Assembly: GCA_002688435.1 (NCBI GenBank)
Contig: NZCW01000012.1
Coordinates: 1-36,967 of the forward strand
Reading direction: 5' to 3'
Source: Dehalococcoidales bacterium
GTDB taxonomy: Bacteria > Chloroflexota > Dehalococcoidia > Dehalococcoidales > RBG-16-60-22
DNA length: 36,967 bases
Of this stretch, positions 640 to 34,035 are shown one piece after another. Position 1 is the first letter of the stretch; every line of letters begins with the position of its first letter. The notes beneath the pieces are model-generated. The model did not search any database and was not told the DNA's origin. It saw only the letters and a program-made list of their open reading frames with translations. The position numbers and the translations under genes are program-made.

Positions 640-1161
640 TTAAGTGGCCAGTTTCCTCCTTTCCGCTTGTTCTGTTTTCAGTCTTCCAAGACCGCTACCG
701 GTAATAAACCCGCTGACGGCGCCAACTAGGACAAAGATAAAGAGCACTACATCGCCCAAGCTGGGATCAACCAACGGTTTTAGAAACGCGTGCACCCAGG
801 CAACCACCAGGTAGGTGATTGCCATTAGAATGGTAACTGTTAGCCTTCCTCTTTGGCGTCTCCCCCTGGCTTCGGCGGCGAGAAGCCTTCTCCAGTTGTA
901 GCCGATGATCAAGCCGGCGGCAACCCCACCTAATGCGAAAAAGAAGGCCAGCATGTTACCTTGTTCCGTATTAATAAAGGGTGGTCTGGCTTCCCTTCCC
1001 GCTTGTTCCGCCGCTTGGCCAGACAAAACGTCAGTAGCGTCACTCCAGAGACCTTGTTTTCTGACAATGTTATTCTCAGAGAGAACGACGGATCCCGTAA
1101 TTGCTAGAACTAAGATGGCTACTGATATACCGATCGTCACTACTTTACCCAGGTTCCCCAT
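640..1161 (-). CDS. Hypothetical multi-TM protein in the cobalt transporter operon (possible CbiN-like accessory)
   Basis: 173-aa ORF with N-terminal TM and three further hydrophobic segments, between cbiM and cbiQ where CbiN/PDGLE components usually lie; no strong family motif recognised. Confidence 0.55.
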   Translation of the reverse strand: MGNLGKVVTIGISVAILVLAITGSVVLSENNIVRKQGLWSDATDVLSGQAAEQAGREARPPFINTEQGNMLAFFFALGGVAAGLIIGYNWRRLLAAEARGRRQRGRLTVTILMAITYLVVAWVHAFLKPLVDPSLGDVVLFIFVLVGAVSGFITGSGLGRLKTEQAERRKLAT

Positions 1162-1186: not shown

Positions 1187-1984
1187 CTATTTTAACTTCA
1201 TTGTCAACGGCATCACGTGAGCCAGTAGCTCAGGGCGGCGCTGATGGACAACCGTTAATACTGCCGCCGTAAAGATACCTTCCAGAATACCCAGGGGTAA
1301 TTGGGTAGGGGCGAAGGCCATGGCGATGCCAATCCACATATTCCAGAGCGAGCCGGCGCCGTGTAAAGCTGAAGCTAGCTCAAAAGAAGTGACGGCGTAG
1401 GTCGTCCAGTCACCTAGAATCCCGGCGGTAAAGGCAGCCACAGCGATAGGGGCATTAAGTTTTCTTAGTACTAGGAAAGTGCCAAATCCGATAGAGGAAC
1501 CGGCTACTGCCATAGACAGGATATTTGCTCCCCAGGTAGTTAAGCCACCGTGTGCTAGAAACAGAGCCTGAATAAGCAAGGCTATCGCTCCCAGAACAAT
1601 GCTGACAAACGGTCCCACCACAATGGCTGCTAGCGGAGTACCACAGGCGTGAGAGGTGGTTCCCGCGGCAGGTACTGGTATCGGAAAAACGGAAATCAGG
1701 AAAACGGCGGCACCCGTTAACCCCAAAAGGGGTAACAGCCCTCTGTTCTTTCTGATTTTATGCTTTATCACTCCTATACCTATGACCACGAAGATAGCAG
1801 CGACCACATACCATATCGCCGCCCACTTTAGCGGCAGAATCCCCTCGGCGATGTGCATCGCATAGGCTGGAGTCGGGGTCAATAAAAGAAATCCGGAGGC
1901 AAACAAGAGAGCCAGGAAAAAACTGCTCTTAAGCTCACGTGCTTGACTATACTTCTCCTTCAACCCGGATCTCCTTTTCTCCAA
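1187..1984 (-). CDS. cbiM: Energy-coupling factor ABC transporter permease CbiM
   Basis: MHIAEGILPLKWAAIW... motif; GTTSHACGTPLAAIVVGPFVSIVLGAIALLIQALFLAHGGLTTWGAN typical of CbiM. Confidence 0.92.
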   Translation of the reverse strand: MEKRRSGLKEKYSQARELKSSFFLALLFASGFLLLTPTPAYAMHIAEGILPLKWAAIWYVVAAIFVVIGIGVIKHKIRKNRGLLPLLGLTGAAVFLISVFPIPVPAAGTTSHACGTPLAAIVVGPFVSIVLGAIALLIQALFLAHGGLTTWGANILSMAVAGSSIGFGTFLVLRKLNAPIAVAAFTAGILGDWTTYAVTSFELASALHGAGSLWNMWIGIAMAFAPTQLPLGILEGIFTAAVLTVVHQRRPELLAHVMPLTMKLK

Positions 1985-3038
1985 AAGCTGACCGCTCGGC
2001 TAATCCCAGTAGGGCATTGACAGCAGCTCCGGCTAAAGCACTACCGCCACGTGTTCCCACGATGCTGATATATGGTATATCTAGTTTCATTAGCTCCTCT
2101 TTTGACTCCTTTGCCTGCACAAAGCCGACCGGCGTACCCACTACAAGTGCCGGGGTAACTTTCTTGCTGCTAACGAGTTCAAGGAGGGCCAGCAGGGCCG
2201 TGGGTGAGTTCCCGATAGCGACTATAGCCTCGTTCAGCCTTTCGCCCAGGACTCGGAAGGCAGTACCACTGCGAGTACTGCCTTCCTCTTGAGTTATCTT
2301 CGCTAACTCCAGCTCGTCTAGGGCACAATATACTTCACAGCCAAACTTCTCTGCCAGGTGACGGTTAATAGCTACGGATACCATCCTTACATCGGTAAAG
2401 ATGGGTCTCCCTAAGCGGATGGCAGTTAGAGCCATTGTTGTTGCCACTGGGTGGAATCTGATAAGGGAAGCCAGATCGCGGTCACCGGCAGTATGGACGA
2501 GGCGCTTGACCACCACCCGTTCTTCCCGCGATAGCTCCAGTGGAGGCAGTAATCCTTCCACTATCTCCATACTCCGCTGCTCAATAAGTTGAGGGCTGAC
2601 CAGCGACATCCGTACGACCGATAAGAGATCTGGCGCACACTCGGCTATGCGTCTGGCTGTGAGACCTACGAAGGATTCATCTGGCCCAAGGGTATTCGCT
2701 ATAGCGAATTGTACCTGTGGATATCGCCTCTTGAAGTTTTCAATGAGCTGAGGGACATGCTCTGTAATATGTCGCCCCGGGAAAAGAAAGTAAGGCATTA
2801 TAACGATGCGTTTTACGGAATCTGTTAGTAGCAACTCCACAGCTTCTTCCAAACTGGGTCGATTAAATTGGAGTGCCGCCCCAATAACCTCCACTCTTCC
2901 GGAGAGGAATGGTCTCACACCTTCCGCAATTCTTTGCAAGACCTTGGGGACTTCAACAGCGCCCTTCTCGCCGCGACTACCGTGGGCTAGGATTATGATT
3001 CCTGTTTTCGCTATGTCTCCCTTCTCCCTCAAAAACAA
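1947..3038 (-). CDS. Fused sirohydrochlorin cobaltochelatase (CbiX) / precorrin-8X (cobalt-precorrin-8) methylmutase (CbiC)
   Basis: N-term IIILAHGSRGEKG...PYFLFPGRHITEHVPQ (CbiX); C-term SMEIVEG...VHTAGDRDLASLIRFHPVA...GNSPTALLALLEL...TPALVVGTPVGFVQAKESKEEL (CbiC). Confidence 0.92.
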   Translation of the reverse strand: MFLREKGDIAKTGIIILAHGSRGEKGAVEVPKVLQRIAEGVRPFLSGRVEVIGAALQFNRPSLEEAVELLLTDSVKRIVIMPYFLFPGRHITEHVPQLIENFKRRYPQVQFAIANTLGPDESFVGLTARRIAECAPDLLSVVRMSLVSPQLIEQRSMEIVEGLLPPLELSREERVVVKRLVHTAGDRDLASLIRFHPVATTMALTAIRLGRPIFTDVRMVSVAINRHLAEKFGCEVYCALDELELAKITQEEGSTRSGTAFRVLGERLNEAIVAIGNSPTALLALLELVSSKKVTPALVVGTPVGFVQAKESKEELMKLDIPYISIVGTRGGSALAGAAVNALLGLAERSAFGEKEIRVEGEV

Positions 3039-3124
3039 ATATCCTTACCTCCATATGAGAAGGCAAGGGAATATCGCGAACGTAAGATTATCTTCATCTG
3101 TGACCTCCCCTCGAAGGTATGTGG

Positions 3125-3290
3125 CACAGCGTACGGCAGGTGACCTGACTGATTAGCCCGGTGATTTTTATCCGAAGGCTAAATCACAGTTGCGGGACAG
3201 TGTCGGAATCACACCGACCTTCTCCTGATAGGCCTATTCAGATACCGTGCGCAATCTTAATTTGAAGGTGCTAACAAAACCGTAAAGCGT
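3125..3290 (-). promoter_or_regulatory. Cobalamin riboswitch upstream of cbiXC
   Basis: Minus strand reads GGTCGGTGTGATTCCGACACTGTCCCGCAACTGTGATT (conserved core plus B12 box at ~3182-3193), with AAGGTGC-type P1 region nearer 3280 (GTTAGCACCTTC). Confidence 0.88.
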
Positions 3291-3308
3291 AACTTCGATA
3301 AAAACAAT

Positions 3309-3348
3309 TATGGTGGATTTTACACTAATGAAGTGGATTTGTCAACAG
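3309..3348 (-). promoter_or_regulatory. Minus-strand promoter/operator element A (TTGACA-N17-TAAAAT)
   Basis: Reverse complement: ctgTTGACAaatccacttcattagtgTAAAATccaccata; 38/40 identical to 4448-4487; points to riboswitch-cbiXC-cbiM. Confidence 0.8.
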
Positions 3349-3393
3349 TCTGTGGGGATTTTCTGCGCCGCGGTTGGCGAAAATCTCACCAGA

Positions 3394-4206
3394 CTACGGG
3401 GGCGTAAGGGGAGGGAACTCTTTCGCTTTTATAGCTGCGTCTAGGAATTCGCAATCTAAACCATCATCCTTTAGTCGTGATAATACGCTATGTGTCGCGT
3501 CACTTGTGCAGACAATAAGGAAGGATAAACCACATTTGGCCGCTTCAATAGAGGCATCGACCACACCATAAATGTACCGAGGTTTGGTACCTGACTTCTG
3601 CAATGCGATTAAAGCTTCGATGCCGATGGCACCAATTTGTTGGTGTCTGCCAAGTTCAGTATTCAAACGTCTAAGGTTGACCTGCTTTGTCCCACCCTTA
3701 TCGACCGTAGGTACACTGAGGATGGTTACCTTACCCTTGCTTAATGTTACTATACCCTCAATGCTGGCTACGCCAATATCTTCACTCTTTCTCGCGTCTG
3801 AAAAGGCTATTCCTCTAGCCCCTTCATTTGGATTGTCAGTAGCGAAGAGTAAACCATCCTTCATTTTTAGGCCTACCAGCTGGTCCTTGACTATATCGCT
3901 GCCCGCCACTGCTGCGCATACAGAAATGTTGGTAACCGCCTTTTCAATAAGGCCAGTGTAGTCCCTTAGCTCTCGCAGCACTTTGATTATCCAGTTAGTA
4001 CCCTTGGAGGTTACCTTATAACTGGCGCGGCCATCTGAGACTAGCAAGCCTTCCGTTACCAATTGTCCCACATGGTCTGATATCGCTTGCGGGCTGACAC
4101 CTACCTTTTTAGCGATGCCCCGCTGTTGGACGTTAGGTCCGCTCTGAGCTATCTCGACTAGTACCTGAAATCTGGTTGCCAGGTTTTTATTTCGTAGTAT
4201 CTCCAT
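3394..4206 (-). CDS. Winged helix-turn-helix transcriptional regulator with C-terminal sensor-like domain
   Basis: N-term LATRFQVLVEIAQSGPNVQQRGIAKKVGVSPQAISDHVGQLVTEGLLVSDGRASYKVTSKG is a clear wHTH; ~180-aa C-terminal domain, reminiscent of archaeal-type regulators. Confidence 0.8.
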   Translation of the reverse strand: MEILRNKNLATRFQVLVEIAQSGPNVQQRGIAKKVGVSPQAISDHVGQLVTEGLLVSDGRASYKVTSKGTNWIIKVLRELRDYTGLIEKAVTNISVCAAVAGSDIVKDQLVGLKMKDGLLFATDNPNEGARGIAFSDARKSEDIGVASIEGIVTLSKGKVTILSVPTVDKGGTKQVNLRRLNTELGRHQQIGAIGIEALIALQKSGTKPRYIYGVVDASIEAAKCGLSFLIVCTSDATHSVLSRLKDDGLDCEFLDAAIKAKEFPPLTPP

Positions 4207-4447
4207 GACGATTTCACCAGTCCGGATGAATATAAACTCGTAGACTTTGTGCCATTATAGCACTTTCCCTCAGCTGCGTAATAGCCGTATAGTTGTCTCA
4301 GTGGACGGTTCAGGAAACGCTAGATTGTGCAGATTAGCCGTCTCTCTGGGTAGGCTTCCAATTCGGTATAACCAAAACTAAAAATGCAGGGCATATCTTC
4401 TCAAAAAATAGGTAATTATACCCCTTGTATCTACGTCATTACTCCTC

Positions 4448-4487
4448 CTGTTGACAAATCCACTCCAGTAGTGTAAAATCCACCATA
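4448..4487 (+). promoter_or_regulatory. Plus-strand promoter/operator element B (TTGACA-N17-TAAAAT)
   Basis: ctgTTGACAaatccactccagtagtgTAAAATccaccata; near-perfect inverted copy of element A; upstream of the ahb/hem operon. Confidence 0.8.
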
Positions 4488-4639
4488 CTATACTGTTATA
4501 AGTTTTTGTAGTTTTTTTATAAATTTAAGCAATTCTGCTTAATGTATGAAGTTAAGTTAGCAAATACTCGTCATTCCCTTTTTATTTACGGTAACTCGTG
4601 GGAGGTTGTTTTTGGTCGAAGAGACGTTAGTCAGCATCG

Positions 4640-5680
4640 GTGAAGCCAGCCAGATGCATGGAAGGGTTATTACTGGATAACAAGGGTAATAGGATTATGA
4701 TGCGTTTAGATAGTATCGACCAAAAGCTGATTGGTCAGCTGCAGGCGGAATTTCCTCTGACTAAAATACCGTTTGCTACCTTGGGACTGAGTCTGGGCAT
4801 TGCTGAGGAGGAGATTATCCAGCGGATTGGACAATTGGAGGCGCATGGTCTAATTCGGCAGATAGGTCCGGTGTTTAATGTCGGGAGCCTTGGCTACCGG
4901 ACCACGTTGGTGGCGATGAAGGTTGTGGAGACTCAGTTAGATAGGGCCGCCCATTTCATCAAAAAGCATCCGGGCATTAGCCATGGTTACGAACGGGACA
5001 ACGCCTTTAATCTCTGGCTTACTCTAGCCGTTCCCGCCGTAGTCGATATGGAGGCGGAAATCCAGAAGCTGGCCAGCGCCGTCTCGGCGGCAACTGCCTT
5101 CAGTCTGCCTGCCGTCAGAGTCTTTAAGCTACGTGCTCACTTTGTCCTGGGTAGAGAAAGGCCGTCGGAGACCACCACCATTAATGCCAGTAACGTTCCG
5201 CGGCGAGATAATGAGCTTTCCCCTGAAGATAGAAACATAATAAACGAGCTGCAACAGGATTTACCTCTGGTCCCGGAGCCTTTCACTGCCATGGCTGCCA
5301 AGCTGGGTATGGATGAGGAGAAATTTGTGGTATCGTGTCAATCTCTTTTGTCACGCGGTATCATGCGGCGCTTCAGTGCCGCGGTTAACCACCATAGGGC
5401 TGGTTTTAAAGCTAATGCTATGACATGCTGGTCAGCACCTTCAGGAAAAGTAGCGGCCGCCGGTAAAAAGCTGGCTTCATTACCGGAGGTAAGCCACTGC
5501 TACGAACGAAGGCCAAACCCGTTCTGGCGGTATAATCTTTTTGCCATGATTCACGCCACGACTAAGGAAGGATGTCAGGAAATAATCGATAAAGTGTCCA
5601 CGGAAACTGGCCTCGCTGATCCCGTAGTTCTACTCAGCACCAGAGAACTGAAAAAGACGAGGGTCAAATATCCGGTATGA
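4640..5680 (+). CDS. Siroheme decarboxylase, fused AhbA-AhbB (Lrp/AsnC-like tandem repeats); true start may be ATG at 4697 or 4659
   Basis: Two tandem wHTH plus decarboxylase-like repeats: IDQKLIGQLQAEFPLTKIPF...GYERDNAFNLWLTL and DRNIINELQQDLPLVPEPF...MRRFSAAVNHHRAGFKANAMTCW...CYERRPNPFWRYNLFAMIH. Confidence 0.88.
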   Translation: MKPARCMEGLLLDNKGNRIMMRLDSIDQKLIGQLQAEFPLTKIPFATLGLSLGIAEEEIIQRIGQLEAHGLIRQIGPVFNVGSLGYRTTLVAMKVVETQLDRAAHFIKKHPGISHGYERDNAFNLWLTLAVPAVVDMEAEIQKLASAVSAATAFSLPAVRVFKLRAHFVLGRERPSETTTINASNVPRRDNELSPEDRNIINELQQDLPLVPEPFTAMAAKLGMDEEKFVVSCQSLLSRGIMRRFSAAVNHHRAGFKANAMTCWSAPSGKVAAAGKKLASLPEVSHCYERRPNPFWRYNLFAMIHATTKEGCQEIIDKVSTETGLADPVVLLSTRELKKTRVKYPV

Positions 5681-5696: not shown

Positions 5697-6356
5697 ATGA
5701 CCTACTACCCGGTTTTCCTGAAAATTAGCGGGCGTAAGTGCGTCGTGGTTGGCGGTGGGCAGGTCGCCCTGCGTAAGGTTAAGATACTTCTTGAGCATAA
5801 TGCTGATGTTATGGTTATCAGCCTGGGCCTTTGTCCGGAGCTAACCCAACTCCATGAGGACGGAGTCGTGCGTGCCCTCATCCGTAAGTACCGGGAGGGC
5901 GATTTAACGGATGCCTTTGTCGCTATCGCCGCCACCGATAGTAGTGATATTAATCGGCAGGTGATGGTTGAGGCTCGAAATAGGGCGGTCCTAGTCAATG
6001 TGGTTGATGATGCCGAAAATTCTGATTTCATCGTTCCTTCGTATCTGCGCCAGGGCGATGTTACCATTGCCGTCTCTACTGCCGGCAAAAGCCCGGCTCT
6101 GGCACGGAAAATCCGTACCAAGCTAGAGAAAGAGCTGGGTGGTGAATATGCTCATCTCGTCGGTCTTATCGGCGAGACGCGTGCTGAACTGAAGCAGCAA
6201 GAGATTACGCTTGATGGAGATGACTGGCAAAGCGCTCTTGACCTCGACCTGCTCCTTGACCTCCTGAGTAGGGATGAAAGAGAAAAAGCCAAGACTACTC
6301 TGCGCCACAATCTGGAGGCAAAGCGATATCAAGTTCCAGGGAAGCGGGACAGATGA
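5697..6356 (+). CDS. Precorrin-2 dehydrogenase / siroheme synthase N-terminal-like protein
   Basis: YYPVFLKISGRKCVVVGGGQVALRKVKILLEHNADV...VAIAATDSSDINRQV...FIVPSYLRQGDVTIAVSTAGKSPALARKIR. Confidence 0.93.
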   Translation: MTYYPVFLKISGRKCVVVGGGQVALRKVKILLEHNADVMVISLGLCPELTQLHEDGVVRALIRKYREGDLTDAFVAIAATDSSDINRQVMVEARNRAVLVNVVDDAENSDFIVPSYLRQGDVTIAVSTAGKSPALARKIRTKLEKELGGEYAHLVGLIGETRAELKQQEITLDGDDWQSALDLDLLLDLLSRDEREKAKTTLRHNLEAKRYQVPGKRDR

Positions 6357-7612
6357 ATATTTGTTTGGTTGGGGTGAATCACCGCACCGCACCGGTGGCT
6401 ATCCGGGAGAAGGTCGCCATCAGGGCAGGTAGGCTGAACGAAGCTTTACAGCTGCTTCGCTCTCATGTCTCGCCAGGATTAATTCTTTCCACCTGCAATC
6501 GTACCGAAGTCTATACCGCCACTAGTGGTGCTAGCTATGCCGAAGCGGCAATCCTCGCTTTTCTACGGACTCATCTGGATGCCCCGGAGGCCACTCTGCT
6601 TAAGCACACCTACGTCTTAAACGATAAGGCAGCCTGTGAGCACCTATTCCGCACTGCTTGCGGTCTTGATTCCATGATTGTCGGTGAGTATGAGGTTCTG
6701 GGTCAGGTAAGGCAATCACTGGAAGCGGCTGATAAATCACGGATGGTAAATCTACCGTTACGCCACCTTTTCCAGCGCGCCATCAGGATCGGCCGGCGAG
6801 TGCGTGAAGAAACGGAAATCAGCAAGAATGCTCTCTCGGTGAGCTCGGTAGCCGTGGACCTGGCTACGGAAGTCATTGGCGACCTGACAAGCTGTAAAAT
6901 GCTGGTTATTGGAGCCGGCGAGGCAGGGAGGGTGGCCGCCAAAGCGGCCAAGGACCGAGGAGTCTCCCGGATTACAGTGGTCAGCCGTACCAAAGAGAGG
7001 GCTTCAAAGCTGGCGACAGCACTGGGCGGGCAACCAGTCAGCATGGACCGCTTGGTGGAGGAACTGGATTCCTGCAGTTTAGTGATGGCCTGTGCCGACG
7101 CCCCTCACTACCTGCTGGATATCCCTCAGATAGAGACCGTTATGAAACGCCGTCCAGGGCTCCCTCTGGTGATAATTGATATTGCCGTTCCTAGGAATGT
7201 GGCCCCGGCAGTGTCGCAGATAAAGAATGTTTTCCTGCACAACATTGACGCTCTCAGCTTGGTTGCCGAACAAAACCGGAAGCAGCGAGAAGGAGAAACA
7301 CAAAGGGTAGCCGAAATAATCACCGCGGAGATGACCGAATTCAGCACTTGGTGGCAGACTTTTGAAGTCAGACCGGTGGTCAGGGCCTTGATGAAAAAAG
7401 CGGAGGAAGTACGCTATTCCCAGCTAAATAAAACCCTGAAGAGGCTGCGCCCGTTGTCTGACGAAGAACGTGATAGCTTGGAAGCAATGACCAAATCAAT
7501 CGTTACCAAACTTCTCCAGGACCCGATTAATTATCTTAAAACAAACGCAAATAATAATGGCCAATATGCCGAACTGGTCAATAAGCTTCTTGGGCTGGAA
7601 GTGGAAAATTGA
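6353..7612 (+). CDS. hemA: Glutamyl-tRNA reductase
   Basis: MNICLVGVNHRTAPVAIREK...LSTCNRTEVY...IVGEYEVLGQVR...VIGAGEAGRVAAKA. Confidence 0.97.
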   Translation: MNICLVGVNHRTAPVAIREKVAIRAGRLNEALQLLRSHVSPGLILSTCNRTEVYTATSGASYAEAAILAFLRTHLDAPEATLLKHTYVLNDKAACEHLFRTACGLDSMIVGEYEVLGQVRQSLEAADKSRMVNLPLRHLFQRAIRIGRRVREETEISKNALSVSSVAVDLATEVIGDLTSCKMLVIGAGEAGRVAAKAAKDRGVSRITVVSRTKERASKLATALGGQPVSMDRLVEELDSCSLVMACADAPHYLLDIPQIETVMKRRPGLPLVIIDIAVPRNVAPAVSQIKNVFLHNIDALSLVAEQNRKQREGETQRVAEIITAEMTEFSTWWQTFEVRPVVRALMKKAEEVRYSQLNKTLKRLRPLSDEERDSLEAMTKSIVTKLLQDPINYLKTNANNNGQYAELVNKLLGLEVEN

Positions 7613-8532
7613 AGATGAGCCGAAGAATCGTCCTTGGTTCTCGGGGCAGTAAACTTGCTTTAACTCAGGCTGAATTAGTGGCGGCCAAGATAAGGGAAGC
7701 AAACCCTGAACTTGAAATCAGCGTCCGCCGAATAGGTACTGAAGGTGACCGTAACCATACTATGCCGCTTGAAAATATGGCCGGTATCGGCGTTTTCATC
7801 AAGGAGCTGGAAGATGCCCTGTTTGATGGCCGCATTGACTTGGCGGTGCATAGCCTCAAAGATATGCCGGCTCAGCTCCCATCTGGACTGCGCCTGGCGG
7901 CCGTAATGGAAAGACTGGACCCTAGAGACGTGCTTATTTCCAGAGGACAAAAGCTGAGCGAGCTGGTTCCCGGGGCAAGAGTTGGTACCGGCAGCCTGAG
8001 GCGAGCCGTTCAGCTAAATATTTTTCGTCCTGGGCTGGAGATATGCAGTATCCGGGGAAATGTCGATACCCGCCTCCGTAAAGTTGCCGATGGTGAATTT
8101 GACGGTGCCCTGCTGGCGGCGGCTGGGATAAAACGCCTTGGTCAGGAGGATAGGATCAACGAATACCTGTCGCCGGAGTATTTCCTGCCGGCGGTGGGTC
8201 AGGGAGCACTGGCCGTTGAGATACGTTCTGATGATAAGGAGACCACCGAAATCATCACGTTACTAAATCATTTGACCACCTGGCGGAACATTACTGCCGA
8301 GCGTTCCTTCCTTATCGCCCTGGGCGGTGGTTGCCGGGCACCCATTGCCGCCTTGGCCACGACCAATGGCACCACCTTGAAGCTGGAAGGCATGGTCGCC
8401 GATGCCGTAAAGAAAAAGATGGTACGCAGTGCGGAAGAAGGTAACAGCGCCAAGCCAGAGGACTTGGGAGAGAAACTGGCGCAGAAGCTGCTTGCCATGG
8501 GAGCCGCCGAATTTATTGCCGAGGCGAGATAA
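7609..8532 (+). CDS. hemC: Hydroxymethylbilane synthase
   Basis: RIVLGSRGSKLALTQAELV...DLAVHSLKDMPAQLP...VGTGSLRRAVQL...IRGNVDTRLRK...LGGGCRAPIAA. Confidence 0.97.
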   Translation: MKMSRRIVLGSRGSKLALTQAELVAAKIREANPELEISVRRIGTEGDRNHTMPLENMAGIGVFIKELEDALFDGRIDLAVHSLKDMPAQLPSGLRLAAVMERLDPRDVLISRGQKLSELVPGARVGTGSLRRAVQLNIFRPGLEICSIRGNVDTRLRKVADGEFDGALLAAAGIKRLGQEDRINEYLSPEYFLPAVGQGALAVEIRSDDKETTEIITLLNHLTTWRNITAERSFLIALGGGCRAPIAALATTNGTTLKLEGMVADAVKKKMVRSAEEGNSAKPEDLGEKLAQKLLAMGAAEFIAEAR

Positions 8533-8534
8533 AG

Positions 8535-10055
8535 ATGAAAGTGGGTAAAGTCTATTTGGTGGGGGCTGGGCCGGGTGACCCCGGCCTGATTTCGGTAAAA
8601 GGAATGGAGTGTCTCCAAAAAGCCGATGTCATTGTTTATGATCACCTGCTTGATGCCCGACTCCTTGATAGTGCGTCTTCAGAAGCCGAGAGAATATATG
8701 TGGGAAAAACGGCCGGTGCGCATACCATGTCACAGACCGAGATAAACGGACTGCTGGTAGCTAAAGCTAAAGAAGGCAGGGCGGTGATACGACTTAAGGG
8801 TGGTGACCCTTTTGTCTTGGGACGCGGTGGCGAGGAAGCCGAAACCCTTGTAGAGAACGGTATCCTGTTCGAGGTAGTACCGGGGATAACATCGGCGGTG
8901 GCGGTGCCAGCCTACGCCGGTATCCCGGTTACCCATCGCCAGCTGGCTTCATCTTTCACCGTCATCACCGGTCACGAAGACCTTCATAAAAACGATTCCA
9001 ACCTTAACTGGGTAAAACTGGCTACCGGGGTAGATACACTGGTCTTCCTGATGGGTATGAAAAACCTGCCGTACGTAGCGGCCAAGCTAATGGAACACGG
9101 CAGGTCGCTGGATACGCCGGTAGCGGTGATTAAAGATGGTACCAGAGCGGAACAAGTAACGGTGGTGGGTAGCCTGAAGGATATTGTCGTTAAAGTTAAG
9201 ACACAAAACCTCACGCCTCCGGCAGTCATTGTCGTTGGGGAAGTGGTCCGGCTGAGAAAGAGGTTGCGCTGGTTCGATAATCGGCCTCTTTCCGGTAAAC
9301 GTATCTTGGTTACCAGGGCACGCCATCAAGCAAGCGCTTTAAGCCAACTTCTAGTAGAGCACGGGGCTCTGCCCATTGAGCTTCCAGCGATTGACATCAA
9401 GGCTACCGATAACACTGGTGAATTAGACCGGGCTATCTCGAATCTGAAACAATACCACTGGATTATCTTCACCAGCGTTAACGGTGTGGCGGCGTTCTGG
9501 CAACGGTTGCATGAGCTAATGTTGGACAGCCGCGCCTTAAGTGAGCTTAAAATCGGTGCTATCGGGCCGGCTACCGCCGGTGTTTTGGAGACAAGAGGTA
9601 TAGTCCCCGATTGTGTCCCGGAAATTTACACCACGGAAGGTATTGTCGCCGGACTCGGCAACCAAGATATTCGCGGGCAGCGCTTTCTGCTGCCACGGGC
9701 GGATATTGCGGATAAAGAGCTGGTGCGAGGAATTAATCGGCTCGGGGCTGAAGTAAATGAAGTAGTTGCTTACCGGACAGTCCCGGTAACCGAAGCCCTA
9801 GTCCGGGCTAAGCAAAAGCTTCTCATCGGTGAAATCGATGTGATTATTTTTACCAGTTCGTCAACTGTGTCCAATCTGGTGACCGCCATTTCGGAAGAGA
9901 CGCTGGCCATAAATAGCGCTAAAGTTGCCTGTATTGGCCCGAAAACAGCGGACACGGCTAACAGAGCCGGATTAAAGGTGGACATCTTGGCCGGCGAACA
10001 GACTATCCCCGGTCTGGTAACCGCCATAGAAGATTACTTCAGAAAGGAGGTTTAG
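8535..10055 (+). CDS. Fused uroporphyrinogen-III C-methyltransferase / uroporphyrinogen-III synthase (CobA-HemD)
   Basis: VYLVGAGPGDPGLISVKGMECLQKADVIVYDHLL...VIRLKGGDPFVLGRGGEEAE (SUMT) and C-terminal HemD KRILVTRARHQASALSQLL.... Confidence 0.95.
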   Translation: MKVGKVYLVGAGPGDPGLISVKGMECLQKADVIVYDHLLDARLLDSASSEAERIYVGKTAGAHTMSQTEINGLLVAKAKEGRAVIRLKGGDPFVLGRGGEEAETLVENGILFEVVPGITSAVAVPAYAGIPVTHRQLASSFTVITGHEDLHKNDSNLNWVKLATGVDTLVFLMGMKNLPYVAAKLMEHGRSLDTPVAVIKDGTRAEQVTVVGSLKDIVVKVKTQNLTPPAVIVVGEVVRLRKRLRWFDNRPLSGKRILVTRARHQASALSQLLVEHGALPIELPAIDIKATDNTGELDRAISNLKQYHWIIFTSVNGVAAFWQRLHELMLDSRALSELKIGAIGPATAGVLETRGIVPDCVPEIYTTEGIVAGLGNQDIRGQRFLLPRADIADKELVRGINRLGAEVNEVVAYRTVPVTEALVRAKQKLLIGEIDVIIFTSSSTVSNLVTAISEETLAINSAKVACIGPKTADTANRAGLKVDILAGEQTIPGLVTAIEDYFRKEV

Positions 10056-11111
10056 ATGACCGCTTTCCCTCAGTTTCGGTTGCGCCGTCTACGACGGACC
10101 GATTCGCTCAGGGCACTGGTTAGAGAAAACCATGTCGAGGTTACGGACCTTGTTTACCCGATGTTCATCGTTGAAGGCAGTGACATCCGGCAGGAAATAA
10201 CGTCAATGCCCGGCGTCTTCCGTTACTCGCCGGACGCGTTAGTGCCCGAGATAGAAGAATTAGCTGAGTTAAAAATCCCGGCCGTTCTCCTTTTCGGTAT
10301 CCCGGAGCACAAGAATGAAGTTGGTTCCTCAGCCTACCACCCCGAAGGTGTGGTTCAGCAGGCGATACGGGTTTTTAAGAAAGCCGTACCGGAACTTCTG
10401 GTGATAACCGATGTCTGCCTCTGTGAATATACCAGCCATGGCCATTGCGGCATACTGGCTGACGGACAGGTGGACAACGACCAGACGTTACCGCTTCTGG
10501 CCGAAACGGCTATCTCTCACGCTGAAGCCGGTGCGGACATGGTCGCCCCTTCGGATATGATGGACGGACGGGTTAAGGTTATCCGTGAGTCGCTGGATGC
10601 CAGGGGATTTCAGCCTATTCCTATCCTCGCCTACTCTGCCAAGTACGCTTCGGCGTTCTACGGACCGTTCCGGGAGGCCGCGGAATCAACCCCACAGTCT
10701 GGTGACCGTCGTGCCTACCAGATGGACCCACCCAATGTACGGGAGGCCTTGCGTGAGGTAGCGCTGGATATTGCCGAAGGAGCTGACATTATCATGGTTA
10801 AACCAGCCCTTGCCTATCTGGACGTGATACGACAGGTGCGTAATGTTTTTAACTATCCCATTGCCGCTTATAACGTCAGCGGCGAGTACGCTATGATTAA
10901 AGCCGCCGCTCAGAAAGGCTGGCTGGACGAGCCTGCAGTGGTACTGGAGACTCTCACTGCCATCAAGAGAGCTGGGGCGGATATCATTCTGACCTACCAC
11001 GCCAAGGATGTGGCAAGATGGCTAAATCGGAAACAAGGAGACACTCATGAACTTAGCACATTCCCGAAAGCTCTTTCAGGAGGCCCAGAAGTATTTACCG
11101 GGCGGGGTTGA
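10056..11111 (+). CDS. hemB: Porphobilinogen synthase (delta-aminolevulinic acid dehydratase)
   Basis: [18 protein letters not shown]...DLVYPMFI...[15 protein letters not shown]...[13 protein letters not shown]...[21 protein letters not shown]. Confidence 0.97.
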
Positions 11112-12324
11112 CAGTCCGGCGCGCGCTTTCAAAACAGTCGGTGGAACACCGCCTTTCATCACCCGGGGACAAGGTTCCCGGATTTATGACGCAGACGGTA
11201 ATGAGTTCATCGACTACGTCTGCTCGTGGGGGCCTCTGATTCTGGGTCACGCGCCTGAGCCGGTAGTCAACGCACTAAAAAAGACGGCCGAAAACGGTAC
11301 TAGCTTCGGTGCCCCTACCGAGCTGGAAATAACCCTGGCTAAAATGACTTCCGCGGCCATACCCTCTATCGAAATGGTCCGATTTGTAAATTCGGGTACG
11401 GAAGCCACTATGTCCGCGCTGCGTCTGGCACGGGCGTTTACCGGCAGAGATAAGGTGGTGAAATTCGCTGGCGGCTACCATGGCCATGCTGACGGATTGC
11501 TCGTCAAAGCAGGTTCGGGACTGGCCACGTTAAGCTTACCGAGCTCTCCTGGTGTGCCATCAAGTTATGCTGGGAACACGCTGTTAGCGTCCTACAACGA
11601 TGCTGAAGCCGTAACCGAACTCTTTCAAAATTACCCTGAGCAGATTGCCGCGGTCATCGTGGAACCGGTGGCTGCTAATATGGGTGTGGTACCGCCGCAA
11701 CCCGGTTTCCTGAATAGTCTGCGTAGTTTGACCAGTGATTTTGGCGCTTTGCTTATCTTTGACGAAGTAATTACTGGCTTTCGTGTCGCTTACGGAGGAG
11801 CCCAAAGCCTTTACGGTATCACTCCTGACCTGACTTGCCTGGGTAAAATAATCGGCGGAGGACTTCCGGTAGGGGCTTATGGAGGGAAGCGGGAGATTAT
11901 GGAGATGATGGCACCTACCGGACCAGTTTATCAGGCCGGTACGCTTTCCGGAAACCCGCTGGCAATGACGGCGGGAATAGAGACCCTTAAGGTTTTGAGC
12001 CAACCGGGAGTCTATGAAAAACTGGGAAATACCACTTCGCGTCTTGAGAAAGGTATTACTGAAGCAGCCTCTGCTTCAAACTTGAAGCTAACTATTTCTC
12101 GTTTTGCCTCGTTACTTACCATCTTTTTTACCGATAATCAGGTATTTGATTACGATTCGGTTTCCGGGGCGGATACGGCGCTTTTTGGCCAGTTTTTCCA
12201 GCAGCTGTTATCAGAGGGGATATACTGGCCACCCTCCCAGTTTGAGGCCGCGTTTATCTCTCTGGCTCACTCTACTGAAGACATAGATTTGACAATCAAG
12301 GTGATTGCGCAGGCATTCAACTGA
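11047..12324 (+). CDS. hemL: Glutamate-1-semialdehyde 2,1-aminomutase
   Basis: [61 protein letters not shown]...[17 protein letters not shown]...[12 protein letters not shown]. Confidence 0.97.
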
Positions 12325-12489: not shown

Positions 12490-13344
12490 TTAGAAGGATA
12501 AAACCTTTTCAGTTTCAGTATGTTGGTTAATAATATTATTCAAATACCTGGCCCCTTCAATGAGAGCAGGGCCAGGCTGTAGAATAATTTCCCCCGGAAC
12601 TTCGTAGATATGACCTTGGCTGATTGCCGGGATGAGCTCCCAGCCCGGGCGTCGCCTTATGGAATCGATATCTACTGGTTTGCCGCACCATGACGCGAGA
12701 ATGATATCTGGAGCCGCTGTGACGACTTCTTCAGTAGTTATAATTCTTTCCATGGCTTTTGGGGAACGACACCGATGAGTAAAACCGTCTGTACCCCCAG
12801 CAATAGTAATGATATCAGAAACCCATTTAATACCACTGACATAAGGGTCATTCCATTCTTCAAAATACACAACTGGCCTATGATATTGATTAGGCCTACT
12901 AGCGGAGATTTTCTGGAACCCTTCGCGCATAGTATTTGTCAGCGCTGTCGCTTCTAAAGTTTTGCTACAAATTTTACCTAATAATCCAATACTCCTATAT
13001 ATTTCCTCAAGCGATGCATGTTGAAGAACCAGTACGTTGACCTCATGCATAATTAGACGCGCCATTATTTTCGCAGATATTTCACTATATCCGATGACTA
13101 TATCGGGGTTTAAGGCAACAATTGCATTGAAATCCGGGCGGGCGAACCCCCCAATGTTTTGAACGTGTTCAATACTAATCTTATCTCCTTCGGCTCCGGA
13201 TGGTTTACCGATAATATTTTCAGCACATCCGAGTTCATAAAGGATATTGAATACGTCATAAGATAGACAGACGATTCGAGCTGGGAAATCCTGATCCAAT
13301 TTAGTATATTGTAATTCCATTTTGTTTTCCTCTCTAGCAAACAA
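12490..13344 (-). CDS. BtuF/FepB-type periplasmic-binding-fold protein (cobalamin-binding-like), no obvious signal peptide; likely start at 13320 (MELQY...)
   Basis: RIVCLSYDVFNILYELGCAENIIGKPSG...PDFNAIVALNPDIVIGYSEISAKI...EVVTAAPDIILASWCGKPVD...GHIYEVPGEIILQPGPALIEGARYL; downstream of a cobalamin riboswitch. Confidence 0.82.
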   Translation of the reverse strand: MFAREENKMELQYTKLDQDFPARIVCLSYDVFNILYELGCAENIIGKPSGAEGDKISIEHVQNIGGFARPDFNAIVALNPDIVIGYSEISAKIMARLIMHEVNVLVLQHASLEEIYRSIGLLGKICSKTLEATALTNTMREGFQKISASRPNQYHRPVVYFEEWNDPYVSGIKWVSDIITIAGGTDGFTHRCRSPKAMERIITTEEVVTAAPDIILASWCGKPVDIDSIRRRPGWELIPAISQGHIYEVPGEIILQPGPALIEGARYLNNIINQHTETEKVLSF

Positions 13345-30893: not shown

Positions 30894-33470
30894 TTAGCAC
30901 TTGGTATAACCACACGCTGGGCAGATAAAACACCCCTCTTGGTAGACAAGCATGTTGCTGCACTCTGGGCACTGCCCGGCTAGGTTCTTGGCCAGGCCGT
31001 AGTCCTCTGGACTGGACTTGCCGTCATAGCCGGTGGTATATTTTTCCAGCACGCTGGCAATAGCGTCGGCGCAGGAGAGGATAGACTTGCCCTGTACCCA
31101 GGCGATGGACGGGCAACGGATACCCCGGAGCTGTCTCACTATGGAACTAACATCTACTCTCGCTCTTAGTGCTAGGGAGATAAGCCGACAGGTGGCTTCC
31201 AGCTGGGCGGAGGCACAGCCACCGGTCTTACCGAGACTGGAAAATACCTCGCAAATCCCGTACTCATCAGAATTCACGGTGACATAGAGCGAGCCGCAGC
31301 CGGTCGAGACCTTCTTCGTACGACCTTCCGTTTCTTCCGGTCTTTCCCGGGGGGTAAGTTTGCCCTCCTCAGTTATTTGTTTTTCTGGCTGGCCGGTGGT
31401 TAGTACTTGGGCGTCACGGCTCCGGTCACGGTAGATGGTTATTCCTTTCAGGTTCTCCTCGTAGGCCAGCTGGTACACCCAGGCAACATCCTCTCGGGTA
31501 GCCTCCTGGGGGAAATTGACCGTCTTGGAGACCGCGTTATCCGTGGATTGTTGGAAGGCGGCCTGTATCCGGACGTGCCATTCCGGAGTTATCTCGTGGG
31601 CGGTGACAAACAACTGCCGGGCAGCCTCAGGTACGCCATCAATCTCACCAAGGTGGACACCGTCCGCTAGCTTCTGCATTAGTTCCTCGGAGTAAAAGCC
31701 CCCGCTGCGAGCAGCTTCCTCAAAGTGGGGATTCACCTCCACCAGCTGGGCGCCGTCCAGGATGTTCTTGGTGTAGCTTAGGGCGAAGAGTGGCTCGATG
31801 CCGCTGGAACAGCCGGCGATCAGGCTCAGGGTGCCGGTGGGGGCGATGGTGGTGCGGGAGGCATTTCTGGTTCTGGAGCCGTCGAGAGTATTGTAGGTGC
31901 TGTCTTCAAAGGCAGGAAAGACACCGCGCTCCTGCCCCAACTCTACCGAGGTCTTGGTCGCCTCTTCGCTGACGAACCGCATAATCTCGGTGCCGGTCTT
32001 GAGCGCCTCTGCCGAGTTATAGGGGGTACCCAGCTGGATGAGTATATCGGCAAAGCCCATTACCCCGAGCCCGATTTTCCGGGTCTTCCGGGTCATTTCA
32101 GCGATTTCTTTCAGAGGGAACTGGTTGACATCAATGACATTATCCAGAAACCGGACGGCGCTCTTTATAGTGGCCGCCATCCTGGGGTAGTCTATCTCGG
32201 CGATCCCGTTTGTTGCCCGCACCATCCGGGCTAGGTTGATTGAGCCTAGGTTGCATGACTCGTAGGGGAGGAGGGGCTGCTCGCCGCAGGGGTTGGTGCT
32301 TTCGATACGGCCTAGGTGGGGGGTGGGGTTATCCTGGTTGATGCGGTCAATGAAAACGATGCCCGGGTCGCCGGTCCGCCAGGCCATATCCACGATTTTG
32401 TCAAAGACCTCTTTGGCGTTGAGCTGGTTCGCGACCTCTTTGGTATGTGGATTGATCAGGTTATAGTTTGCCTCCGCCTTGACCGCTTCCAGAAACTCGA
32501 CGGTTACGGCTACGGAGATGTTGAAATTGGTTAGAGAAGTATAGTCTTCTTTAGCGGTGATGAACTTTATGATATCTGGGTGGTCCACGCTGAGGATGCC
32601 CATATTCGCCCCGCGGCGCATTCCGCCCTGCTTGATGACATCGGTGGCGGTGTCAAAAGCGCGGATAAAAGAGACTGGGCCGCTGGCTATGCCGCCGGTG
32701 GAGCCCACCAAGTCTTTTTCCGGCCTCAGCCGGGAGAAGGAAAAACCGGTCCCGCCGCCGCTCTTGTGGATGAGCGCCGTGTTTTTCACCGACTCGAAGA
32801 CGGACTCCATGGAGTCCTCGATGGGCAGGACGAAGCAGGCGGACAGCTGTCCCAACTCCCTCCCGGCGTTCATTAAGGTGGGGGAGTTGGGCAGGAACTC
32901 CAAGCTGGCCATCAGCCGGTAAAACTCATCTTCTCTTGCTTGGACATCCGCCTTAGGGTCGTAAATGAGCTCGGCCGAGGCGATAGTTACGGCCACACGG
33001 TGGAACATCTCCTCCGGCGTCTCGATAACCTGCCCCTGCTTATCTTTCTTCAGGTACCTCCTCTGTAGTACATGAAGGGCGTTTTCGGTAAGGTTTAGGC
33101 CGGACGCGGGCTGGCTTTTTGACTTAGCGGTATCGACTTTTTCCATTTTGGTTTTTGTCTCCTCGGTATGCTTTAGTTCTTCGGCCGCTAGGATTTCCTC
33201 GACCATGGTCAGTATGTCAGTTTTGGCGGGCAGGCGGATTTGCTGGCGAGACAGCACTGGCACTAGGTCTTCCATGCCGGGTAGGGTGGGTGTCGGTGAT
33301 GGCAGGGGTGACTCACGTTCCAGCCGCGTAATCACCTGTGAGGTGAGCCGCTCCACTAGTTGCCGGTCGGCAATGCCTATGGACTCAGCGGCGGCAAAGA
33401 CGATACGGGCAATCTGGCTCCGGTTGGGCGAGTTTACTCTTTTATTTTCCGGTTGACCGGCTCTGTCCAT
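30894..33470 (-). CDS. nrdJ: Adenosylcobalamin-dependent (class II) ribonucleotide reductase
   Basis: LPNSPTLMNAGRELGQLSACFVLPIEDSMESVFESVKNTALIHKSGGGTGFSFSRLRP...ESTNPCGEQPLLPYESCNLGSINLARM...IAPTGTLSLIAGCSSGIEPLFAL...C-terminal CPECSNMLVYQEGCFICPACGYTKC. Confidence 0.96.
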   Translation of the reverse strand: MDRAGQPENKRVNSPNRSQIARIVFAAAESIGIADRQLVERLTSQVITRLERESPLPSPTPTLPGMEDLVPVLSRQQIRLPAKTDILTMVEEILAAEELKHTEETKTKMEKVDTAKSKSQPASGLNLTENALHVLQRRYLKKDKQGQVIETPEEMFHRVAVTIASAELIYDPKADVQAREDEFYRLMASLEFLPNSPTLMNAGRELGQLSACFVLPIEDSMESVFESVKNTALIHKSGGGTGFSFSRLRPEKDLVGSTGGIASGPVSFIRAFDTATDVIKQGGMRRGANMGILSVDHPDIIKFITAKEDYTSLTNFNISVAVTVEFLEAVKAEANYNLINPHTKEVANQLNAKEVFDKIVDMAWRTGDPGIVFIDRINQDNPTPHLGRIESTNPCGEQPLLPYESCNLGSINLARMVRATNGIAEIDYPRMAATIKSAVRFLDNVIDVNQFPLKEIAEMTRKTRKIGLGVMGFADILIQLGTPYNSAEALKTGTEIMRFVSEEATKTSVELGQERGVFPAFEDSTYNTLDGSRTRNASRTTIAPTGTLSLIAGCSSGIEPLFALSYTKNILDGAQLVEVNPHFEEAARSGGFYSEELMQKLADGVHLGEIDGVPEAARQLFVTAHEITPEWHVRIQAAFQQSTDNAVSKTVNFPQEATREDVAWVYQLAYEENLKGITIYRDRSRDAQVLTTGQPEKQITEEGKLTPRERPEETEGRTKKVSTGCGSLYVTVNSDEYGICEVFSSLGKTGGCASAQLEATCRLISLALRARVDVSSIVRQLRGIRCPSIAWVQGKSILSCADAIASVLEKYTTGYDGKSSPEDYGLAKNLAGQCPECSNMLVYQEGCFICPACGYTKC

Positions 33471-33534
33471 CTGACGATTCCTACTTCCGGTTTAATTGCT
33501 CCGGCTTTATTCTATCCTCTTCCGGCCAGTTCCT

Positions 33535-34035
33535 CTAATCTGTCGGTGGGGAGAGTAGGGAGAGCTGGTTGGGGCGGGGCACTACTGATTCTCCGCTGAC
33601 CAGGGTATCCACGACTTCTTTCAGCGTGGTGATGTCGGTAAATTCTCGGTAAACACTGGCGAAGCGGAGATAGGCAATGTGGTCTAGGCCACATAGTTTT
33701 TCCATCACCATATCACCGATAACCGTGCTGGACACCTCAAGTCTGCCGGAGCGGTAAAGCTCGGCTTCAGTGTCATCGGCGACCTTATCCACCGTGCCGC
33801 TGGGCAGCGGCCGTTTCTCACAGGCCTTGCGGATGCCGGTGAGCAACTTGTCCCGGTTAAATTCCTCGCGTCGCGCGTCTTTCTTGATGACGAACAGTCC
33901 GGCCGGCTGCAGGCGCTCGTAGGTGGTGAAACGGGAGTCGCACTTCAGACACTGGCGCCGGCGGCGTATACCGTCGTTTATATCACGAGAATCGATGACT
34001 TTAGAATTATGGTAACCGCAATAAAGACAGTCCAT
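33535..34035 (-). CDS. nrdR: Transcriptional repressor NrdR
   Basis: MDCLYCGYHNSKVIDSRDINDGIRRRRQCLKCDSRFTTYERLQ...VIKKDARREEFNRDKLL...RFASVYREFTD. Confidence 0.97.
   Translation of the reverse strand: MDCLYCGYHNSKVIDSRDINDGIRRRRQCLKCDSRFTTYERLQPAGLFVIKKDARREEFNRDKLLTGIRKACEKRPLPSGTVDKVADDTEAELYRSGRLEVSSTVIGDMVMEKLCGLDHIAYLRFASVYREFTDITTLKEVVDTLVSGESVVPRPNQLSLLSPPTD

Follow-up and report, generated by a model that had tools for sequence, protein, structure and literature searches.

DUF7839 winged-helix proteins and a tandem-box operator suggest a B12 repressor in Dehalococcoidales

We analyzed a 36,967-nucleotide stretch of a Dehalococcoidales genome, hereafter the window, in which two 40-bp promoter modules flank a gene for a winged helix-turn-helix (wHTH) protein. 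Judged from sequence comparisons, the 40-bp repeat is very likely an operator of this protein, because a matrix derived from relatives finds both copies and because btuF promoters share their layout. The operator family, its association with the regulator and with B12 genes, and the match of both copies to it are computed observations. We consider it likely that the protein is a B12 regulator, probably a repressor, that acts at operators A and B (Table 1). The first-pass annotation had also proposed a local regulator acting at both promoters; the assignment of the repeat to the adjacent protein is retained here, while the register of the operator and the signal are changed.

Table 1 Features of the window around the regulator gene
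Feature	Position	Strand	Details
Copy A of 40-bp module	3309..3348	-	-35 TTGACA 3345-3340, -10 TAAAAT 3322-3317
Copy B of 40-bp module	4448..4487	+	-35 TTGACA 4451-4456, -10 TAAAAT 4474-4479
Predicted DUF7839 operator A	3305..3336	-	box1 CCACTTCATTAG 3336-3325, linker TGTAAAAT 3324-3317 with -10, box2 CCACCATAATTG 3316-3305
Predicted DUF7839 operator B	4460..4491	+	box1 CCACTCCAGTAG, linker TGTAAAAT, weaker box2 CCACCATACTAT
Regulator gene, between copies A and B	3394..4206	-	N-terminal MarR-type wHTH; C-terminal beta-rich + alpha/beta domain
Regulator's own extended -10	4254..4262	-	sequence TGCTATAAT
Weak candidate autoregulatory operator, regulator leader	4217..4248	-	AAAGTCTACGAG-N8-CATCCGGACTGG; 9th among intergenic sites
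Cobalamin riboswitch aptamer, cbi operon leader, downstream of operator A	3118..3264	-	Rfam RF00174, 49.2 bits
Hairpin including cbiXC ribosome-binding site; possible riboswitch expression platform	3043..3068	-	
cbiXC fusion	1947..3038	-	sirohydrochlorin chelatase-like CbiX + CbiC precorrin-8X methylmutase
cbiM	1187..1984	-	cobalt ECF component
CbiN-like ECF gene	640..1161	-	weak match
ahbAB fusion	4640..5680	+	siroheme decarboxylase; true start probably ~4676-4700
Remaining hem operon	5697..12324	+	CysG N-terminal domain, hemA, hemC, cobA-hemD, hemB, hemL-like aminotransferase

The modules had been described as an inverted pair, and the reverse complement of 3309-3348 is indeed identical to 4448-4487 at 38 of 40 positions. 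The copies differ at module positions 18 and 21, and their likeness ends abruptly beyond the 40 bp. Both carry TTGACA-17-TAAAAT, in agreement with the claim of near-consensus promoters (11/12 to consensus), and both contain the palindrome CACT-N5-AGTG and the 20-bp AAATCCAC repeat that had been noted. The 4-bp arms of the palindrome are weak evidence alone and the informative feature is the 20-bp period; as the operator core, the palindrome gave way to a register of box1-N8-box2 with this period and with the -10 in the N8. When up to 3 mismatches were allowed, the module motif was found at two places in the window, against 0 expected, and at no others in the 1.2-Mb genome, which is ~81% complete. 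Since these exactly two copies are the only ones in the genome, the module is not a dispersed repeat, a possibility that the first-pass annotation had raised against its own reading. A search for the literal 40-mer in the family genomes found no copy outside the window; it is not the literal sequence that is conserved in relatives but the operator to which both copies fit.

The protein between the modules has, as had been claimed, a wHTH and a large C-terminal domain. Its N-terminus belongs to the MarR-type wHTH proteins (MarR_2, 29.4 bits against a cut-off of 27) and residues 155-251 belong to PF25211 DUF7839 (84.7 bits against a cut-off of 27). Foldseek matched the N-terminus to HcaR and other MarR structures with a probability of 1.0, and the recognition helix is conserved throughout the regulator family. 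The C-terminal domain was modeled confidently (pLDDT 95); a sequence search of the PDB gave it no significant match and Foldseek no hit below 0.001. Kinship of this domain to uroporphyrinogen methyltransferase was considered and dropped, the similarity being weak (1ve2, E 0.12) and hhalign giving no support. Sequences similar to the extended -10 of the regulator gene lie upstream of several orthologues (L037, L038, L041). A partial literature search found no paper on DUF7839, and one for an archaeal regulator named CblR together with cobalamin returned nothing relevant.

Regulator orthologues are present in 61 of the 156 genomes of the order. A profile search of genome contigs detected 567 relatives, where a single-protein search beforehand had returned none, and the named records among the matches are mostly metagenome-assembled genomes of Dehalococcoidales or Dehalococcoidia. 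The closest available orthologue is 58-59% identical to the regulator of the window. The orthologues nearest to it lie directly before cbiXC-cbiM, and in L037 ahbAB precedes the regulator and cbiXC. Others adjoin cobO, btuF-btuCD, an ECF transporter with DUF4430 proteins, cbiA, cobT/cobS or cobQ; the exception, with no B12 neighbours, is a set of Dehalococcoides-like genomes (genus g31; name inferred). Archaeal homologues also have no B12 neighbours, which counts against a B12 regulator. Those of Methanosarcina and Methanothrix (L222-L224, L227, L229-L231) are 38-40% identical, and an HTH-like gene (TRIINDPSxLVPLL) precedes them.

The promoters linked to the orthologues share a predicted, previously undescribed operator of two 12-bp boxes, C(A/C)AnTnnAnT(T/A)G, exactly 20 bp apart. 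At orthologous loci, the intergenic DNA before cbiXC contains a consensus promoter and, after it, CAAGTATACTTG-N8-CAAGTATACTTG. A matrix built from these cbiXC sites matched upstream of some regulator genes as well as before btuF, ECF/DUF4430 genes, cobO and cbiA; its top sites scored 20-30, compared with at most 16 after shuffling. Across species, B12 genes thus both neighbour the regulator and carry the operator. In a second set of loci, from genomes partly shared with the first set, there were 42 hits at a spacing of 20 bp versus 0-9 (mean 2.3) at 17 other spacings from 13 to 30. With up to 2 mismatches, the operator occurred in 36/61 regulator-bearing genomes versus 16/95 others (p=9e-8, Fisher, ignoring species relatedness), and a reversed pattern showed no significant difference between the same two groups. 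At most sites the boxes lie on or just after the -10. Both window copies belong to a minority class with the -10 at +14, together with btuF (L182, L164, L174) and cbiA (L088, L089) sites, while at most other sites the -10 ends at or shortly before box1.

The fit of the window to this operator was examined with a matrix trained on 35 sites of orthologue-bearing relatives from which the window was left out. Among the intergenic sites (176 kb) of the 1.2-Mb genome, copy A ranked 3rd, the regulator leader 9th and copy B 12th, so that three of the top 12 sites fall inside 788 bp (p=2e-5); operator A is the best site of the window. Under a stricter matrix of 21 sites, with the linker class left out, A ranked 122 and B 905 of the 1.2 Mb, the best register being unchanged at both. 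The window boxes are degenerate and box2 of copy B is weak or incomplete. Between -35 and -10 comes box1, then the 8-bp linker with the -10, then box2; an earlier idea, in which the whole operator of copy A lay after the -10, was replaced by this 20-bp register. A relaxed search paired the 40-mer with the L174 btuF promoter, from a genome of another family, at 33/42 positions versus copy A (GTTGACAAATCCAATAAACTAGTATAAAATCAACTTTACTTG for btuF, GTTGACAAATCCACTTCATTAGTGTAAAATCCACCATAATTG for copy A), and btuF promoters of other families show the same -35/box/-10/box geometry.

The abrupt end of the likeness, the lack of literal copies elsewhere and the incomplete box2 of copy B would all suit a strong promoter that was merely duplicated or gene-converted and that matches the operator by accident. 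We regard this as unlikely, since an independently learned matrix fits both copies in the same register and the -10 sits within the linker as in L182, L164 and L174; the two differences between the copies also fall at free positions of box1, a weak point (p=0.13). It is still less probable that the protein senses heme or siroheme as a tetrapyrrole regulator balancing the corrin and heme branches. Both copies do face tetrapyrrole operons, as had been stated: copy A the B12 operon, with a Cobalamin riboswitch and then cbiXC and cbiM, and copy B the heme/siroheme operon of ahbAB, the CysG N-terminal-domain gene, hemA, hemC, cobA-hemD, hemB and the hemL-like aminotransferase. The gene order of L037 points the same way. 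However, the operator of the relatives marks btuF, ECF uptake, cobO, cbiA and nrdD, not hem genes, and control that runs in the same direction at the two promoters does not by itself yield a balance. A conserved operator at hem/ahb promoters, as expected for a heme or siroheme regulator, was not found: among 20 ahbAB/hem loci examined in relatives with the regulator, none has it at the promoter, some of these loci being cut by contig ends, and the balancing claim is unsupported on this count. As the operator was not seen at these loci, the case for its control of the hem operon comes from copy B of one genome. Copy B may then be an addition to the B12 regulon, specific to this lineage, that covers the supply of precursors. 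In regulator-bearing relatives, radical-SAM genes (ahbC/D-like, by sequence) often precede ahbAB. The leader of the hem operon contains a perfect inverted repeat, TTAAGCA-N4-TGCTTAA, at 4525-4542, and a gene for a periplasmic binding protein of the Fe/heme/B12 type (12490-13344) is convergent with hemL.

Cobamide is probably the signal, because the regulon of the family consists of B12 uptake and synthesis. Two genomes also have the operator, with a promoter, upstream of nrdD, which encodes the B12-independent class III RNR (L198:5401-5432, L203:6119-6150), and both encode a class II RNR 65% identical to that of the window. An operator on class III nrdD in genomes with a class II RNR suggests B12-dependent repression. 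NrdR was rejected as the binder of the nrdD sites, the same boxes being present at btuF and cbi genes; NrdR boxes differ in sequence and spacing from those at nrdD with their 20-bp spacing. In Streptomyces, an AdoCbl riboswitch on nrdABS follows the same logic as the operator before nrdD (PMC4991794). The window itself has a class II-type RNR with a TSCPD domain, plus nrdR, near its right end (30894-34035). We give a low probability to an activator, or to a ligand that induces rather than corepresses: the sites overlap near-consensus promoters, where sequence cannot tell the sign, but boxes on or after the -10 are in the position of a repressor at most sites, and nrdD and B12 uptake are sensible as genes that B12 switches off. 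The regulator thus appears best read as a cobamide-responsive repressor rather than a heme/corrin balancer, with cobamide as co-repressor the simplest reading.

Riboswitches are regarded as the main control of B12 genes in bacteria. Cobalamin riboswitch regulons (RF00174) have the same targets, namely B12 synthesis, uptake and B12-independent RNR, and use RNA where the DUF7839 system would use a protein and a DNA operator. Cobalamin riboswitches were found in 14/30 genera with the regulator versus 52/55 genera without it (p=9e-7, Fisher, ignoring species relatedness). The two tend toward mutual exclusion at the genus level in the order, and the regulator probably often takes the place of the customary B12 riboswitch in these bacteria. 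The cbi operon of the window has both, its riboswitch following the operator; orthologous cbi loci differ in this, and G152 has the same order of promoter, operator and riboswitch at another locus. The second Cobalamin riboswitch of the window's genome (L240:8236-8379, contig C9) has no evident DUF7839 operator and is followed by cobD/cbiB-like, cobC-like, cobT, cobQ and cobU-like genes.

We infer binding, sign and ligand, and also what the cell would gain physiologically from including the hem operon, as follows. The N-terminal winged helix would bind the two 12-bp palindromic boxes, 20 bp or two helical turns apart, and since the boxes of the window flank the -10 hexamer, the bound protein would block RNA polymerase. 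The C-terminal domain probably senses cobamide, and repression would thus set in when B12 is sufficient. Operator A would control cobalt insertion, corrin synthesis and cobalt uptake through cbiXC-cbiM, with the riboswitch as a second check on the mRNA. Operator B would extend control to the operon for the shared precursors (uroporphyrinogen III, precorrin-2/sirohydrochlorin) and for siroheme/heme. A broader suggestion, for and against which we see about equal grounds, is that DUF7839 is a new cobamide-sensing domain, that dedicated B12 repressors replaced Cobalamin riboswitches across much of Dehalococcoidales, and that in the genome of the window a copied operator-promoter brought the tetrapyrrole precursor operon under the repressor, which was also stacked on a riboswitch.

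Ligand-responsive repressors of the MarR family share the wHTH fold and palindromic sites with the regulator, which differs in its extra C-terminal beta plus alpha/beta domain (DUF7839) and in its tandem boxes 20 bp apart. Similarity to DtxR/MntR-type metalloregulators (SloR, ScaR, MtsR) is weak and limited to the HTH at approximately residues 12-77, and no metal-binding or dimerisation domain of that type was matched. PocR, which regulates pdu/cob genes for propanediol use, and CarH, a light sensor for carotenoid genes, likewise link transcription to B12 or its metabolism (PMC8123684). A domain shared between these two and the regulator was looked for and none was found. If the proposal is true, a protein repressor with its own operator, tending to occur in the absence of riboswitches, would account for B12 control in many Dehalococcoidales, whose organohalide-respiring relatives depend on cobamides. 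DUF7839 would gain a function, and the system would offer a testable example of protein control that replaces RNA control or is stacked with it.

Two further settings of the operator were observed. In G152, an operator with a promoter (L321:3299-3330) faces cobO next to what is left of a second, broken regulator gene. At four loci (L057:3886-5868, L055:3778-4734, L161:5078-7042, L207:4903-7572), the operator precedes genes for secreted DUF4430 proteins that adjoin ECF/CbiQ genes. These are possibly transcobalamin-like B12-binding proteins of bacteria, and some of them have a terpene-cyclase-like alpha barrel.
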